Part shown: piece by piece, positions 28,439-35,290 of the stretch
Layout of the letters: every line of letters starts with the position of its first letter
How positions within the stretch are numbered: position 1 is the first letter of the stretch
From: an uncultured Ruminococcus sp.
GTDB lineage: Bacteria > Bacillota > Clostridia > Oscillospirales > Acutalibacteraceae
Assembly (NCBI GenBank): GCA_902779615.1
Contig: CACZCM010000006.1
Location: 1-41,551, forward strand
Direction: 5' to 3'
DNA length: 41,551 bases
The notes under the pieces: generated by a model
What the model was told of the DNA's origin: nothing
Database searches by the model: none
The model's input: only the letters and a program-made list of their open reading frames with translations
Program-made: the position numbers and the translations under genes

Positions 28439-28448
28439 GGTGAATATT

Positions 28449-29090
28449 ATGAATAAAAACATTAAATATATGGCGGCATCAGCGGCGATACTTCTTATGA
28501 TAACGGCAGGAGGCTGCAAGCCGAAAAACGACAGTGGATCGAAGGCTCAGTCCTCCTCAAACACGATAGCCGATACCGTGTTGACCGAGGATAATGGAAC
28601 AAGCGGCACATCGAGCAAAAGCGGCACATCGAGCAAAAGCGGCACATCGAGCAAAAGCGATACATCGAGCAAAAGCGATACATCGAGCAAAAGCGATACA
28701 TCGAGCAAAAGCGATACATCGAGCAAAAGCGATACATCGAGCAAAAGTGACACGTCCAGCAAAAGCGATACATCGGACAGAAATGATACAGCGACCCGGA
28801 ACGAAGGCGCAGCCGAACAAAATACATCTGACGTCAGTGATGAACAGATAACTATGAGCAAGCTTGGCGAGATCATGTCACGTCTTGCCGAGGAAGAATC
28901 GGAGATAAAACTGCCGTTTGTTCCATATGAGCCTGCAAGCAGCGAAGGCGGCAGCGCCGACAGCTCCTCGCGAAGTGAAACAAGCAGCAAATCGGCAGAC
29001 GGCTCTTCTTCGTCCCGAACATATACGATAGACGGCGAAACATATACGCCCGACGAGAATGAAACCCCAATATTGAGAATGCCTGATTAA
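28449..29090 (+). CDS. Lipoprotein with Ser-Lys-Asp-Thr hexapeptide repeats
   Basis: The ATG at 28449 has AAGGTGA upstream; the in-frame GTG at 28440 overlaps that site. Of 213 aa, a signal peptide ends in a lipobox-like TAGGC (Cys about 23). Residues about 52-105 are nine hexapeptides, three SGTSSK-type and six SDTSSK-type, encoded by an 18 bp tandem repeat. A short helical stretch (MSKLGEIMSRLAEEESEI) follows, then a second Ser-rich region and TYTIDGETYTPDENETP near the end. The repeat is probably a flexible surface stalk. No enzymatic domain is visible. Confidence 0.78.
   Translation: MNKNIKYMAASAAILLMITAGGCKPKNDSGSKAQSSSNTIADTVLTEDNGTSGTSSKSGTSSKSGTSSKSDTSSKSDTSSKSDTSSKSDTSSKSDTSSKSDTSSKSDTSDRNDTATRNEGAAEQNTSDVSDEQITMSKLGEIMSRLAEEESEIKLPFVPYEPASSEGGSADSSSRSETSSKSADGSSSSRTYTIDGETYTPDENETPILRMPD
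28603..28764 (+). repeat. 18 bp tandem repeat, nine copies
   Basis: Nine units of 18 bp in phase with the reading frame: three GCGGCACATCGAGCAAAA, five GCGATACATCGAGCAAAA and one variant GTGACACGTCCAGCAAAA. Copies within each class are identical, which suggests recent slippage. Changes in copy number keep the frame. Confidence 0.95.
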
Positions 29091-29101
29091 TTGGTGATAT
29101 T

Positions 29102-30208
29102 ATGGATAATCCTTTTTTGATAAGATCGGACGATCCCAAAAAGTCCGATCGGCTGACACCTTTGTGTTCGGTCAATAAGGTGGTGATCGCAAAGCTGCCT
29201 GTTTACGGTGTTGATGATCCGATCGAAGGCATGAATGTCAAGAGCTTTTTCAGTGCAAAGATAATAGCCGACACTGTGCGAAAAAATGCGCCGCTGCTTC
29301 ATATCAATGATATGGCGTACAGCGACAAGGATCTGCCGAAGGTCCTGGCAAGGAAGGCAAACGATGCTTCGGATTGTTACGGAGCGAAAGAAGCGCAGCG
29401 GATAATAAAGAAATTCGGAAGTCGTTTGGGGCTGCTGCTGCTGACGCTGAAGCTGGGGGAGAAGGAGAACCGCTACGCCCGTCCCGACTGGACTTTCGCG
29501 CACTGGGAGTATTGGAAAAATGTCAGTGATATAGTGCTGGTAGGGGGGCTTGCGAGCGGGTCGTTCGGCGAGATACTTCGTGACAGCGCCAACGAGGTAT
29601 TTGCGCTGAAATGCGTCAAGCCGTATAATATTTTGCTTTACGCGAACGCAGCGCAGGCGGCGGTGCTTGGGTGCGCTGCCTGTATCGAGGCGAGAAGCGG
29701 AGTGTTTGTCGTAATGGATTTCGGACAAACGGGAATCAAGCGCAGCTGCGTTGTTATGAGGGATGGAGAAGCGGCGGAGATACACAGCTTTGAAACGCTG
29801 CCTTCAAGGTACATGGACTGGGAGCTGCCGAGCGAAGAGGAAAAGCTAAGGCAGGCGAAGAAGCTTCACGCTTACCTGATATCGGCGCTTGAGAAGACAT
29901 ACAGAGAAGCCGAACGGAAGCTGAAAACAGATATAGGCGACGAAATAATAATCAGTATAGCGAGCTATACGTCCGACGGGGTACTCGACAGTACAAGAGG
30001 CGGGTACGCCAAGCTTTGTCTGCTTGGAGAAAACTATGCAGAGGTACTGAACTGGGAATTATCCGGCAGATTAAGGCGGGAGGTCAGAGTAAAGCTGATA
30101 CATGACGGAACGGCAGTTGCGCTGAATTTCCGCAGCCGCCGCAGCACGGTGTGTTTATCGGTTGGATCGTACTTTGGCGTAGGGTTTCCAGAAACGGAGA
30201 TCGTATAG
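29102..30208 (+). CDS. ROK-like sugar kinase fold protein, motifs in circularly permuted order
   Basis: Of 368 aa, RBS GGTGAT precedes the ATG. The region 95-193 looks like the C-terminal half of a ROK protein: helix AQRIIKKFGSRLGLLLLTLK, adenosine-type SDIVLVGGLASGSFGEIL (142-159), then ANAAQAAVLGCAA (181-193). Only afterwards come N-terminal ROK landmarks: phosphate-1 VVMDFGQTGIKRS (203-215, Asp206), ISIASYTSDGVLDS (284-297), phosphate-2 LIHDGTAVALN (332-342, Asp335) and SVGSYFGVGF (353-362) at the end. The CxCGxxGC zinc motif of the ROK glucokinase at 13145 is absent. It is last in the ribF run. Kinase activity and substrate are unknown; it could be a non-catalytic relative. Confidence 0.7.
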   Translation: MDNPFLIRSDDPKKSDRLTPLCSVNKVVIAKLPVYGVDDPIEGMNVKSFFSAKIIADTVRKNAPLLHINDMAYSDKDLPKVLARKANDASDCYGAKEAQRIIKKFGSRLGLLLLTLKLGEKENRYARPDWTFAHWEYWKNVSDIVLVGGLASGSFGEILRDSANEVFALKCVKPYNILLYANAAQAAVLGCAACIEARSGVFVVMDFGQTGIKRSCVVMRDGEAAEIHSFETLPSRYMDWELPSEEEKLRQAKKLHAYLISALEKTYREAERKLKTDIGDEIIISIASYTSDGVLDSTRGGYAKLCLLGENYAEVLNWELSGRLRREVRVKLIHDGTAVALNFRSRRSTVCLSVGSYFGVGFPETEIV

Positions 30209-30420: not shown

Positions 30421-31902
30421 TTACTGCTCCGAGAGAGATTTGATCTGTTCGATCATCTTTGTAACGTAGCTTTCGTATGCCGTTAACGTTACGGTGCCGT
30501 TTATTAAAACGGGGCATTTTCTGTTTTCTGCGGTAAAGTACTCGGCAGTGGCCTTTGAGCCGTCGGTGAAGGTGTATTCGACCTTCAAAATGGATTCGCC
30601 CGACGAAGGCTTTTCGGTTACGCCTCCTGTGCGCTGCGCATCTGTCAGCTCACTGTAGAACGAGTCGAAATCGCTTTTGTTTACTTCGGCGCCGTTTCGC
30701 TTTACCGTTGTAACGGTTTCGGTCTGTTCGCTGTCTTCCTGTGCTGCGGCAGTTTCGGTTTTTACGTCAAACCTACAGCTTGCGCCGCCGCCGGTTATCT
30801 CGATCGAAGAGAGCGATTCGAGCTTCGGGTCAAGTATCTTCTTTGAGATGCAGCTGCTGTAATCGTTCAGTATCCAGGGCGCGCTGTCGGTCTTTAGTTT
30901 GTATATGATCCCGTTGGTGAGCAGATAGAACTCTCCCTCGGGGCTTGGCTTTGAGGCTTTATAATCGACCGTCAGATCAGGGTACTCTGCGTTTACTGTA
31001 ACGTATGGAATGTCAAGTCCGTATTCCTTTACCGCGGCCTCATCGGGATCGACCGTCATGACCTCTTCCGCTGTCAGACTGCGGATATTATTCAGCATAT
31101 ATGTGACGTTCTCCTCATCGGCGACAAGTCTGTCGGGAGAGGTTATCATATAGGTTGAGCTATATTTGTCGCTGTCGGCATATCCGAACTCTACGTCAAC
31201 GCCGTAATGCTCGCCGCCGAGGATCATTTTTGTGAAGACATTTTCGCTGTCGTCATCGGCGGATTTTCCGATATTGGTGGACATCATATTCATAGCGCCG
31301 ATCAAAAATCCGTCTGCCGAGTCTGTTGTAACAAGATAAATATTTTTGTCATCGTTCACGGTGAGATATGTGCCCTGATTGTCCGGGGCATCGTCGCCTA
31401 CGGTGATCGTCGCCTTGTCGCCGTTGGTGAATTCCACTTTGACGACCGAACGAGGCTCATCAAATCCGAAGTCTGATTTTGCCGTGCCGTCGTTCACGAT
31501 CTTGCCGGCTGTTACTGCGGCAGCGTCAGACGCGACCATATCGGGCGAGCCTTGAAGAAGCTCTTTGTCTTCGTAGCCCACGAGAGTGTAGATCGTGGAA
31601 TCGGTCACCTGTGATGATTCACCCTCGGCATTTGTAACAGTTGATACGGGAGTTCTTGAAAGCAGAGTGTATTCTCCCTTCTCGTTCTTGACGTCGATCT
31701 GCTTTATATCTGCGGGGACGTGGGATATCAGTGAATACTCTTCGTGGGTGTGCTCCTCGCCGTCCGAATGCGCCGCAGTGATATCGCTGTCGGCTGAAGT
31801 GTCGCTTTGGTCGGGCAGAAGGAAATAAACTCCTAAAAATGCGCCTGTCAGAATTGCTACGGAGGCAATTGATATGATAAGCGTTTTTGTTGTTTTCTTC
31901 AT
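30421..31902 (-). CDS. DUF4340 domain protein of a Gld-type ABC system
   Basis: This 493 aa protein has an N-terminal membrane helix (about 8-28) followed by an extracytoplasmic region with duplicated DUF4340-type modules (YTLVGYEDKELLQGSP, VKVEFTNGDKATITVGDD, YLTVNDDKNIYLV, and later LKVEYTFTDGSKATAEYF). RBS GAGGTGAT. It is last in a four-gene operon behind a GldG-like protein, an ABC-2 permease and an ATPase. The operon resembles the GldAFG gliding/export transporter with its accessory DUF4340 protein. The transported substrate is unknown. Confidence 0.85.
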   Translation of the reverse strand: MKKTTKTLIISIASVAILTGAFLGVYFLLPDQSDTSADSDITAAHSDGEEHTHEEYSLISHVPADIKQIDVKNEKGEYTLLSRTPVSTVTNAEGESSQVTDSTIYTLVGYEDKELLQGSPDMVASDAAAVTAGKIVNDGTAKSDFGFDEPRSVVKVEFTNGDKATITVGDDAPDNQGTYLTVNDDKNIYLVTTDSADGFLIGAMNMMSTNIGKSADDDSENVFTKMILGGEHYGVDVEFGYADSDKYSSTYMITSPDRLVADEENVTYMLNNIRSLTAEEVMTVDPDEAAVKEYGLDIPYVTVNAEYPDLTVDYKASKPSPEGEFYLLTNGIIYKLKTDSAPWILNDYSSCISKKILDPKLESLSSIEITGGGASCRFDVKTETAAAQEDSEQTETVTTVKRNGAEVNKSDFDSFYSELTDAQRTGGVTEKPSSGESILKVEYTFTDGSKATAEYFTAENRKCPVLINGTVTLTAYESYVTKMIEQIKSLSEQ

Positions 31903-31913
31903 TATCTATCACC

Positions 31914-33611
31914 TCACATATTACGGCGTTTAACGAAAATAACGATGCCTGTAATAAGGATAACAAGAGGCAGAACTATCACGAACAATACGGTGAACAC
32001 GCCGAGCTGTACCGACGAGATATTAAGCGTTTCGGCTTTCAGCGACTGCGTTTCGATCTGAACGCCAACGTTATCTCTGCCGACAAGCGTATTCAGCAGC
32101 GCCGACATATACTGCGCATTTCCGTATATATTAGATGAAAGGAACGACTCCGTGACAGCGTAGTTCGAACCGATGACGACGATGTGAGATTCCTTGCTTT
32201 CTTCCGAGCTGTCGGATGAATCTTCTGTCTTTGCTTCGCCCTGAGATGCGATCGCTCCGACAGCCGCTTCGGGTGTGGTTTCTTCAACCGGCTCTGCGTT
32301 GTCGTCTGTTTCGGGAGGATAAATGATACTGCTCTGCTCCGAAAGCTTCATCAGCGATTGAGCTTTGTTGTCGTCAAGAATTCCGATGGCGCGGGTATAA
32401 ACGCCGTTGCCATGGAGAACGCAGAACGGAAGCTCGGAATTCTTCATCTTGGCAGTGTATGTTGAATCTGTGTATTCCGATGCAAAGAGATACATTCCGT
32501 AAGTTATCTGCGACACCTTCGTCATGTCGTTCTCAACCGCATACCCGTTTTTGACCTCAAGACCCCACTCTTCCAGGAGTGAATCGATGTTCGGAGTTTC
32601 GGCGAGTGAGGCGCTCGGCAGATAGAGCAGCTGTTTGCCGTAATTTCCGCCGTTTGTAAGGTAATTTGCGATCTTGTCGACATATGCCGAATCGAGATCT
32701 ATGTTCGGCGCATAAAGAACAAGCACTTCGGTATCGTCGGGGATGTCGTCGATAGCGGGAGATATCTCATCGGTTTCAAATCCGTTGTCGCTGAGAAATT
32801 TTACAAAGGCGGAATAGTCCTCGTTCGTGATGCCCGATATGAAAGACACCTTCGGTTTGGTGTCAAGCGTAACGTTCAGAATTGCAGATGTCACAGCCTG
32901 TTCCAGCTTGCAGCCTGCGATATAGTATGAGTACGATTGGTAATCGATCTGAACGTCAAAATATTCCGTGGTCGGCAAATATTTATAATCATTCTGACCC
33001 TGAACGATTATTCCGTACTGCGCAAGCTGTTCATCGGGATATTTGCTTGTGAAGGTCGGGTTCGATGCAAGGTCGGAGAAAGAAAGCTTGATATGATCCG
33101 ACTTGTCGGCATAGTCATGAAGCAGAGCGTCGGACTGGATATAGTATTCGCCGCCCTCACGATATGTTTTTTCGTCGCAGAGAACGATCAGCTCAATGTC
33201 CTCGTTAAGCTTGTCGAGGTAATCGATCGTTTCGTCTGTCAGCTCAAAGCTTCCCGAGCCTGTTGTATCGGCAACAAGAGCGGGCACTTTTTCAACAAGC
33301 GTATTTGCGATAAGATTTACAAGTATCACTGCGGCAATAAAGAACGCAACTAATGCGATGGAGAACCAGCCCCGCCTGAAAGCGCGCGCCTTCAAAGCGC
33401 GTCTGGCTTCTCGGCGCGCCTTCTTCTCCTTTTGTTCCTCGGTCAGCTCTTTTCGAGGCTTTTTTGGCTCTTTTGCTTTTTCGTCCTTCTGCGTTTCATC
33501 TGTGGTTTCAACATCGGCTTCAGCGGCGTTTTCGGCCTTGTCTTCGGCGGCTTTTGCCGCTTCTTCGGCTGTGTCTTCCTTCTGAAGGCTCAATTTGTTT
33601 TCACTGCTCAT
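31914..33611 (-). CDS. GldG-like ABC transporter auxiliary protein
   Basis: Of 565 aa, a charged Ala/Glu/Lys-rich cytoplasmic tail of about 85 residues (partly coiled-coil and followed by RREARRALKARAFRRGW) precedes a membrane helix (about 88-108). A large external domain of the GldG/ABC_transp_aux type follows, with LNEDIELIVLCDEKTYR, YLPTTEYFDVQIDYQ and NYLTNGGNYGKQLLYLPS. A Ser/Glu-rich linker (about 450-480) and a C-terminal helix (about 538-560) with RRN complete it. RBS AAGGAGGTG. The long N-terminal charged tail is more than the family usually has. Confidence 0.85.
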   Translation of the reverse strand: MSSENKLSLQKEDTAEEAAKAAEDKAENAAEADVETTDETQKDEKAKEPKKPRKELTEEQKEKKARREARRALKARAFRRGWFSIALVAFFIAAVILVNLIANTLVEKVPALVADTTGSGSFELTDETIDYLDKLNEDIELIVLCDEKTYREGGEYYIQSDALLHDYADKSDHIKLSFSDLASNPTFTSKYPDEQLAQYGIIVQGQNDYKYLPTTEYFDVQIDYQSYSYYIAGCKLEQAVTSAILNVTLDTKPKVSFISGITNEDYSAFVKFLSDNGFETDEISPAIDDIPDDTEVLVLYAPNIDLDSAYVDKIANYLTNGGNYGKQLLYLPSASLAETPNIDSLLEEWGLEVKNGYAVENDMTKVSQITYGMYLFASEYTDSTYTAKMKNSELPFCVLHGNGVYTRAIGILDDNKAQSLMKLSEQSSIIYPPETDDNAEPVEETTPEAAVGAIASQGEAKTEDSSDSSEESKESHIVVIGSNYAVTESFLSSNIYGNAQYMSALLNTLVGRDNVGVQIETQSLKAETLNISSVQLGVFTVLFVIVLPLVILITGIVIFVKRRNM

Positions 33612-33623
33612 TTCGACACCTCC

Positions 33624-34328
33624 TTAACTCCAGCGCTTCTTCTCGATGACCCTGATCGTCAAAAACAGGAACAATGCGATGATCGAGAGGAAGAATATCA
33701 CATCGGCGAGGCTCAGCAGACCCACCGTAAAATTCTGATAATGCGACAAAAACGATACTGCCGACAGCGCCTTGCTGACGATCTCCGCTGATACTGCGCT
33801 TGCAACGTTGTCGAGCAAATATACAAAAAGCCCCGCAGCAAAGCCCGATATAGCGGCGATCATCTGGCTTTCGGTAAGTGACGAAAGGAAAATATCGATC
33901 GCAATGAATGCAGCCGCAAGCAGGAACAGCCCAAGGCAGTTGCACAGTATCACAGACCACTTTGGCGAAACAAAAAACGAAAGAACAAATCCGTAGATCA
34001 AAAATATCGACATACAGATCAGGTACATGATGCTGGCGGAGAAAAATTTTCCGAGTACGATCTCTCCGATCCCAACGGGTGAGGTGAGAAGCGCCTGATC
34101 GGTCTTCAGCCTTTTCTCATCGCTCATCAGCCGCATACATAATATCGGAGTGAGAAATATTGTTACCAAGAACATATTTGTAAAAACATATGTTAATTCG
34201 GACGTGCTGTTGCCAAGGCAGATCAGCGTGAAGAAAAGTCCCGAGAAAAACAGGAAGATAGACAGGATCACATATGCGAGCGGAGAGCAGAAGTAGGAAT
34301 ACAGCTCCCTTTTGATTATTGCGCCCAT
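33624..34328 (-). CDS. ABC-2 type permease (GldF-like)
   Basis: This 234 aa protein has six predicted membrane helices, beginning IIKRELYSYFCSPLAYVILSIF, a typical ABC-2 start, and with RLMSDEKRLKTDQALLTSPVG, the conserved coupling region of GldF/NosY-type permeases. The start overlaps the ATPase stop (TAATG), showing translational coupling. Next is the GldG-like gene, 12 bp downstream. Confidence 0.9.
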   Translation of the reverse strand: MGAIIKRELYSYFCSPLAYVILSIFLFFSGLFFTLICLGNSTSELTYVFTNMFLVTIFLTPILCMRLMSDEKRLKTDQALLTSPVGIGEIVLGKFFSASIMYLICMSIFLIYGFVLSFFVSPKWSVILCNCLGLFLLAAAFIAIDIFLSSLTESQMIAAISGFAAGLFVYLLDNVASAVSAEIVSKALSAVSFLSHYQNFTVGLLSLADVIFFLSIIALFLFLTIRVIEKKRWS

Positions 34329-35290
34329 TATTTTGCCGCCCCCTTATGATTATTGTATTGAGTGTCATTTGTAAGCTTGAGGAAGATCTCTTCAAGCGAC
34401 GGGTCTGCGCTCTGCATAAGCATAAGCGGCATTTTCGCTTCCGCAAGCTTGTAGAAGATCTGTTCTCTAAGGTCAATATCGCCGTTGAGTTCAACGATAT
34501 AGTCGATCACGCCGTCGGAGTGTTCGCGTTCCTTTGTGACGTTATTTACTCCCTTGATCGATGACAGCAGATCGATAGCGGCGGACTTGCCGCCCTTAAC
34601 GCCGACGCGAAGCTTATCGGAACGACCCAGTGTTTTCGCAAGATCCTCGGTGGGAGAATCGGCAACGATCTTTCCGTTGCTGATGATAAGCACTCTGTCG
34701 CAGATCGCCTGAACCTCCGAAAGAATATGGGAAGACAGGATCACGGTGTGCTTTTTCCCAAGACTTTTAACGAGGTTTCTGATCTCGATTATCTGTTTGG
34801 GGTCGAGTCCGACCGTCGGTTCGTCGAGTATCAGAACGGGAGGGTTGCCGAGTAGAGCCTGCGCAAGACCGACACGCTGGCGATAGCCCTTCGAGAGGTT
34901 CTTGATAACTCTGTCTTCAACCTGGCTGATCTTGACCAATCTGCACACATCGTCAATATGAGTATCACGATCCAGCTTGATCTTTTTGAGGTTATACATA
35001 AACTCAAGATATTTTCTGACTGTCATATCAACGTATAACGGCGGTATTTCAGGAAGATAGCCTATCTTCGATTTAACGCCCTTGGGATCATCGAGGATCT
35101 CGCAGCCGTCAACTGTGACAGTTCCGCTTGATGACGAGAGATAGCCGGTAATGATATTCATGGTAGTTGACTTACCTGCGCCGTTCGGCCCCAAAAAGCC
35201 GACGATCTCGCCGCTGTTCACAGTAAAGCTAATGTCATCAACGGCTTTTTTGTCGCCGTAGACTTTGGTGACATTTTTTACTTCGACCAT
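34328..35290 (-). CDS. ABC transporter ATP-binding protein (GldA-like)
   Basis: This 320 aa ATPase has Walker A GPNGAGKSTT, Q-loop YLPEIPPLY, signature LSKGYRQRVGLAQAL, Walker B PPVLILDEPTVGLDP and H-loop ILSSHILSEV. A C-terminal accessory domain (about 225-315) contains IVELNGDIDLREQIFYKLAE. It energises the permease encoded immediately after. First gene of the operon; no convincing sigma-A promoter was found in 35291-35430, although TATAGT and TATATT occur there. Confidence 0.95.
   Translation of the reverse strand: MVEVKNVTKVYGDKKAVDDISFTVNSGEIVGFLGPNGAGKSTTMNIITGYLSSSSGTVTVDGCEILDDPKGVKSKIGYLPEIPPLYVDMTVRKYLEFMYNLKKIKLDRDTHIDDVCRLVKISQVEDRVIKNLSKGYRQRVGLAQALLGNPPVLILDEPTVGLDPKQIIEIRNLVKSLGKKHTVILSSHILSEVQAICDRVLIISNGKIVADSPTEDLAKTLGRSDKLRVGVKGGKSAAIDLLSSIKGVNNVTKEREHSDGVIDYIVELNGDIDLREQIFYKLAEAKMPLMLMQSADPSLEEIFLKLTNDTQYNNHKGAAK

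Follow-up and report, generated by a model that had tools for sequence, protein, structure and literature searches.

The window analysed here, i.e. the whole stretch of 41,551 nucleotides at positions 1 to 41,551 of contig CACZCM010000006.1 (assembly GCA_902779615.1), comes from an uncultured Ruminococcus sp. We report on the gene at 29102-30208 on its forward strand, an uninterrupted reading frame of 368 codons and a stop codon, whose product we regard as a circularly permuted ROK-like (ASKHA) protein and not as a member of the ROK family itself (repressor, open reading frame (ORF), kinase; PF00480). The features assigned to it are given below with the residue numbers of the product; counts refer to an alignment of 44 sequences, which comprises the window protein and homologues from 43 of the 47 loci found in a scan of species genomes.

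29102-30208, forward strand: whole gene for the putative circularly permuted ROK-like protein of 368 residues, with homologues and an AlphaFold2 model (predicted local distance difference test, pLDDT, 94.4; predicted template modelling score, pTM, 0.89)
29102-29698, forward strand: N-terminal half (residues 1-199), predicted counterpart of the ROK C-terminal half
29525-29578, forward strand: adenosine-type GG strand followed by a turn and the start of a helix (residues 142-159; strand 143-147 and helix 153-169 in the model; G148, G149 and L150 in 44/44)
29648-29680, forward strand: helix (residues 183-193) at the position of the ROK C-terminal helix, according to the secondary structure of the N-half model and the alignment ranges
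29696-30205, forward strand: C-terminal part (residues 199-368), predicted counterpart of the ROK N-terminal half
29708-29740, forward strand: phosphate-1 motif VVMDFGQTGIK (residues 203-213; D206, G208 and K213 in 44/44, DxGxT in 41/44)
30095-30127, forward strand: catalytic-type Asp segment LIHDGTAVALN (residues 332-342; H334, D335, T337 and A338 in 44/44)
30158-30187, forward strand: phosphate-2-like hairpin SVGSYFGVGF (residues 353-362; strands 349-354 and 358-361 in the model; G355, G359 and G361 in 44/44), the final chain element

The GG adenosine-like motif at residues 142-159 reads SDIVLVGGLASGSFGEIL, and ANAAQAAVLG occupies residues 181-190. A short linker separates the helix 183-193 from the phosphate-1 strand, whose motif begins at residue 203 of 368, and SVGSYFGVGF stops six residues short of the chain end; this order is identical in the 44 aligned rows. 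In contrast, the ordinary ROK glucokinase-type protein encoded in the same window (PF00480, E 1.3e-65) shows, as judged by eye, DLGGT, NDANAA, LGTGVGGG, the zinc cysteines, IGGG and GAALL in the standard order. DxGxT, which PMC5458393 counts among the ROK signatures, is located in the C-terminal half of our protein. A preliminary description of the sequence had placed the GG strand and ANAAQAAVLG before phosphate-1 and SVGSYFGVGF last, and had regarded D206 and D335 as retained and the zinc motif as lost, which holds in every respect. Its label phosphate-2 for residues 332-342 calls for a remark on naming, as this segment carries the catalytic-type Asp. In ASKHA usage, phosphate-2 touches the beta and gamma phosphates (PMC1079889), and the GTxxGxG-like loop 353-362 is taken to be this element.

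The gene is real and constrained. Nonsynonymous change (pN) was well below synonymous change (pS) in all eight pairs compared, for example 0.129 vs 0.763 for the nearest relative (L025). Invariant in all aligned sequences are N3, P4, S23, N25, R127, W130 and W135 in the N-terminal half, besides the residues of the GG strand, and in the C-terminal half those named in the list. The pattern of motifs goes beyond chance, because 13 motif residues are identical in 44/44. The permuted order was kept in the homologues examined, a check that the preliminary description had proposed for other Ruminococcus genomes, and inspection by eye found it unchanged in L072, L073, L074 and L097. Exceptions to the conservation are L097, which is without NPF, and L073 and L074, which have Ser in place of G359. 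The copy in Clostridium sp. SIG253 (L071, 6001-6634) is disrupted by frame changes, through either decay of the gene or faulty assembly.

The main evidence for the permutation comes from predicted structures. The whole protein was modelled confidently as a two-lobed molecule, and the N-terminal half modelled by itself reached a pLDDT of 93.4. In structural alignments, the N-half model superposes on ROK C-terminal halves, and the C-half on ROK N-terminal halves. The two pieces tile the ROK chain in all 12 ROK-type PDB entries common to both alignment listings, they cover 262-295 residues of ROK-type entries, and their junction lies just past the GTGxGGG region. The actin/ROK-type fold anticipated in the preliminary description was obtained, with the ROK halves matched in exchanged order, and the new termini fall where it had put them, after the GTGxGGG strand of an intact fold. 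ROK examples are the N-acetylmannosamine kinase domain of human GNE (2yhw), the Mlc homologue 1z05, the sugar kinase 3r8e and the glucokinase 3mcp, the last two of which we take to be ROK members. In the ranking for the N-half, ROK-type proteins make up the best 26 rows, ahead of other sugar kinases; the N-half also matches the C-terminal parts of two pantothenate kinase (PanK) entries, both of which are present in both listings. Since the ranges reach the ROK chain ends (e.g. residues 1-197 on 3r8e 145-300), we infer that the helix 183-193 is equivalent to the ROK C-terminal helix. Generally, we consider it very probable, on these models, that the order of the halves is exchanged, i.e. that the protein is a circular permutation of the ROK-like (ASKHA) fold. 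It must be mentioned that the pattern emerged from a VIA-align run on Foldseek candidates, and families outside those rows may also match.

At the sequence level, the kinship is confined to the C-half. A profile of residues 200-368 aligned collinearly with positions 8-146 of 13 ROK proteins from related genomes over 131 columns (probability 85, E 5.8e-6 as a single comparison). When compared with the full ROK profile, the C-half profile reached a probability of 77 and the whole protein one of 56. With realignment by hhalign, D335 coincides with the Asp in NDANAA of ROK; without realignment it is two columns off.

Several results weigh against the assignment or against any strong claim from sequence. 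The ExGH motif and the zinc motif CxCGxxG[CH] are absent from all 44 aligned sequences; the zinc motif is also missing from some accepted ROK kinases such as F. nucleatum NanK (PMC5458393). PF00480 in native order gave no match for the window protein and one among the 44 members (E 0.019, not significant). The N-half profile shows no sequence similarity to ROK (E 0.31). In native order, Pfam and PHROGs returned no match for the product, and NCBIfam (E 0.11) and PDB sequences (E 0.22-1.9) gave chance-level rows. A search with swapped halves, proposed in the preliminary description as a check, failed to yield a significant match to ROK or to any Pfam or PDB entry; PF00480 was hit in 2/7 proteins with a best E of 0.042 (not significant), and rotation of the profile in ten-residue steps did not extend the hhalign match to ROK past the C-half. 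We attribute the lack of useful matches in Pfam, NCBIfam, PHROGs and PDB sequences to permutation and divergence, which together conceal homology. Concerning the structure, the halves were superposed separately and as predicted models only, ROK rows for the whole model are equal in Z to sequential PilM rows, and Foldseek gave no row at E <= 0.001 for the N-half. For the whole model, ASKHA structures occupy the Foldseek rows listed, EutJ and PilM among them, with mainly Hsp70-type proteins at the top and low TM-scores by query length (0.15-0.32 among the rows listed). In terms of ROK features, DxGxT, an Asp at the catalytic position (D335; its role as base is putative) and, in models, the ROK tertiary fold are present, whereas ExGH, the full zinc motif CxCGxxGCx(E/D) and a significant PF00480 score are absent.

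The gene was found in 23 of 148 genomes at E <= 0.001, namely its own, 19 of the 21 of the same genus and 3 of the same family; completeness is 82% for G004 and 76% for G008, the two same-genus genomes without a match. Wider samples were sparse, with 7/394 genomes of the order, 3/391 of the class and 1/398 of the phylum, the own genome counted each time. The 47 loci of the species-genome scan are chiefly Ruminococcus-labelled or from other metagenome-assembled genomes (MAGs) of Clostridia; further carriers are Clostridium bornimense (L065) and one Spirochaetes MAG (L070, 28% identity). In G011 the gene is divided over the ends of two contigs (L023 with residues 1-214, L024 with residues 222-368), which looks like an assembly break and not a split gene. 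The plasmid and phage collections held no match to the gene, so an origin from a mobile element was unsupported and given up.

Neighbouring genes were clustered over 47 loci (46 of the 47 scan loci, L067 excluded, and the window), many of them on short contigs, and neighbour families were verified on single examples only. No neighbour is constant. In one clade, an orphan protein of about 390 residues (cluster C4) is encoded downstream of the gene in 16/47 loci, 13 of which also have a GH13-cluster ORF (GlgB-type in the L030 example) and 8 a GlgC-like-cluster ORF. The example of the orphan protein at L034:7183-8352 has no Pfam or NCBIfam match, and a search for the protein in the genome to which the window belongs, run with no positive control, came back empty. 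In another clade, a PF06182-cluster permease ORF ends 16-55 nt upstream of the gene (11/47; L061 members checked), and 10 of these 11 loci have a GH13-cluster ORF downstream, which in L061 carries starch-binding, pullulanase-type and dockerin domains. On a tree of 48 rows, permease neighbours are spread over several separate branches, so the pairing of gene and permease may be old. In a third clade the gene is near YqfD-type (8/47) and PduL-type (5/47) genes; the PduL-type phosphate propanoyltransferase ORF lies downstream in L045, L050, L051, L052 and L056, of which the L056 example was checked. In total, GH13-cluster ORFs occur in 25/47 loci, GlgC-like ones in 8/47 and the PF06182-cluster permease C5 in 15/47.

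None of these neighbours stands beside the gene in the window. A role in alpha-glucan metabolism, suggested by the GH13 and GlgC-like neighbours, and a role with an ABC (ATP-binding cassette) exporter, suggested by the permease, were both dropped, since these neighbours are inconstant and not beside the gene in the window. Upstream of it, the window encodes RibF-type, DUF3810 and NusG_II proteins and a repeat-rich ORF. The ORF directly upstream at 28440-29090 (+) is lipoprotein-like (GGCK near the N-terminus, by eye) with SSKSDT-type repeats and no Pfam match; ORFs of its cluster are also near the homologue in L025, L027, L068 and L069. From downstream, an ABC cassette at 30421-35290 (-) converges on the gene (DUF4340, ABC_transp_aux, ABC-2 membrane protein, ATPase), and all four of these ORF clusters are also represented upstream of the L034 homologue.

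Taken as a whole, we are fairly confident that the best explanation is a naturally permuted ROK-like ASKHA protein, probably a small-molecule kinase. According to the model, the chain would begin just past the counterpart of the GTGxGGG hairpin, form the C-lobe, pass through the helix that ordinarily ends a ROK protein and, after a short linker, build the phosphate-1 strand and the N-lobe, before a terminal phosphate-2 hairpin belonging to the C-lobe. Motif conservation suggests that Mg-ATP is most likely held in the inter-lobe cleft, with D206, K213 and the loop 353-362 at the phosphates and the GG at 148-149 at the adenosine. D335 could then act as base in the transfer of phosphate onto a hydroxyl group of a small, probably sugar-like molecule. 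Since all 44 sequences retain D206 and K213 at phosphate-1, the catalytic-type D335, the glycine loop and the GG strand, ATP binding and phosphate transfer are the most economical reading; nevertheless, from sequence we hold ATP-dependent phosphate transfer to a small-molecule hydroxyl to be an evenly balanced proposition, and the assignment of any particular substrate class would be quite doubtful. From the chain order, the N-terminal segment, which bears NPF and SxN, probably sits at the substrate side. As the ROK substrate elements past the cut are missing and this segment is there instead, the substrate probably differs from those of ROK proteins.

The permuted fold may also serve in an ATP-dependent switch or regulator, perhaps together with a membrane system such as an ABC-2 exporter, a tentative possibility that we see as the chief rival to a kinase. 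ROK repressors, EutJ, PilM and FtsA are non-kinase members of the same fold, EutJ and PilM appear among the Foldseek rows, none of the 44 sequences has the sugar-contacting ExGH or the zinc motif, and besides the permease ORF 16-55 nt upstream in 11/47 loci, ORFs of permease clusters are found farther off on other branches (L041, L030, L031). However, a pure switch need not retain the Asp at the catalytic position, and neither permease cluster was seen in 31/47 loci including the window, with many contigs short. A further question is whether the permuted protein derives from a ROK gene, which on structure is likely, though not proven on sequence. We regard it as less likely that it is instead a very old ASKHA branch which resembles ROK in structure only. 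Such a branch would fit the dissimilar N-half sequence and the weak Pfam matches to Hexokinase_1 (6/44, best E 0.029) besides the one to ROK. It would also fit the lack of an unpermuted close relative above noise in 197 genomes: the half-exchanged profile gave rows at E <= 1 in 12 of them, of which G000, G041, G197 and G210 contain the permuted gene, matched as two stretches in permuted order, and the other eight have only rows at E 0.035 or worse. Against it stand the ROK-type proteins at the top of the N-half ranking and the collinear C-half profile. Very improbable is an actin-like protein in ordinary order, whose first lobe lost the leading hairpin and whose lobe pseudo-symmetry mimics permutation, as sequential matches cover 183-231 residues (3.8-5.8 Å, rows listed) compared to 262-295 for the exchanged halves, the N-half alone finds the C-terminal halves of ROK proteins and the C-terminal parts of the two PanK entries, the C-half finds ROK N-terminal halves, and the motifs (GG in the N-half, DxGxT and the catalytic-type Asp in the other) agree with permutation.

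No permuted ROK or ASKHA kinase was found in searches of the open-access literature on circular permutation and these folds, in line with the preliminary description. Passages of PMC1079889 allow for circular permutation among kinase fold groups in general and name none for the ROK/ASKHA group. We lean slightly towards an undescribed natural permutant of the ROK/actin-type ATPase fold: an old and conserved family, mostly of Clostridia with one copy in a Spirochaetes MAG, whose new ends border the cleft on its substrate side and in which a new N-terminal segment completes the kinase active site in place of the ExGH/zinc region of ROK. If true, a two-lobed ATPase fold tolerates a cut within the C-lobe beside the phosphate-2 loop while retaining its ATP motifs, which would open a route to testing how much chain order matters for kinase folding and domain closure. 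Moreover, an orphan gene conserved among Clostridia of the rumen and gut gains a testable biochemical hypothesis.

Compared to known systems, the protein is closest to the ROK family, with which it shares both lobes in the predicted structure, DxGxT, the catalytic-type Asp, a GTxxGxG-like loop and the GG adenosine strand. It differs in the exchanged chain order, the lack of ExGH and CxCGxxGC, the non-significant PF00480 score and an N-half that cannot be aligned by sequence. Other ASKHA proteins (hexokinase, pantothenate kinase, PilM, FtsA, Hsp70) match sequentially with fewer residues covered, and in our reading these matches place each lobe on the opposite lobe. Natural permutants are known from other ATP-dependent enzyme families, namely the circularly permuted type 2 ATP-grasp proteins and the eukaryotic glutathione synthetase (PMC7701253 and PMC2876114). 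Their fold is unrelated, and they serve here solely as a precedent that such permutants can persist.
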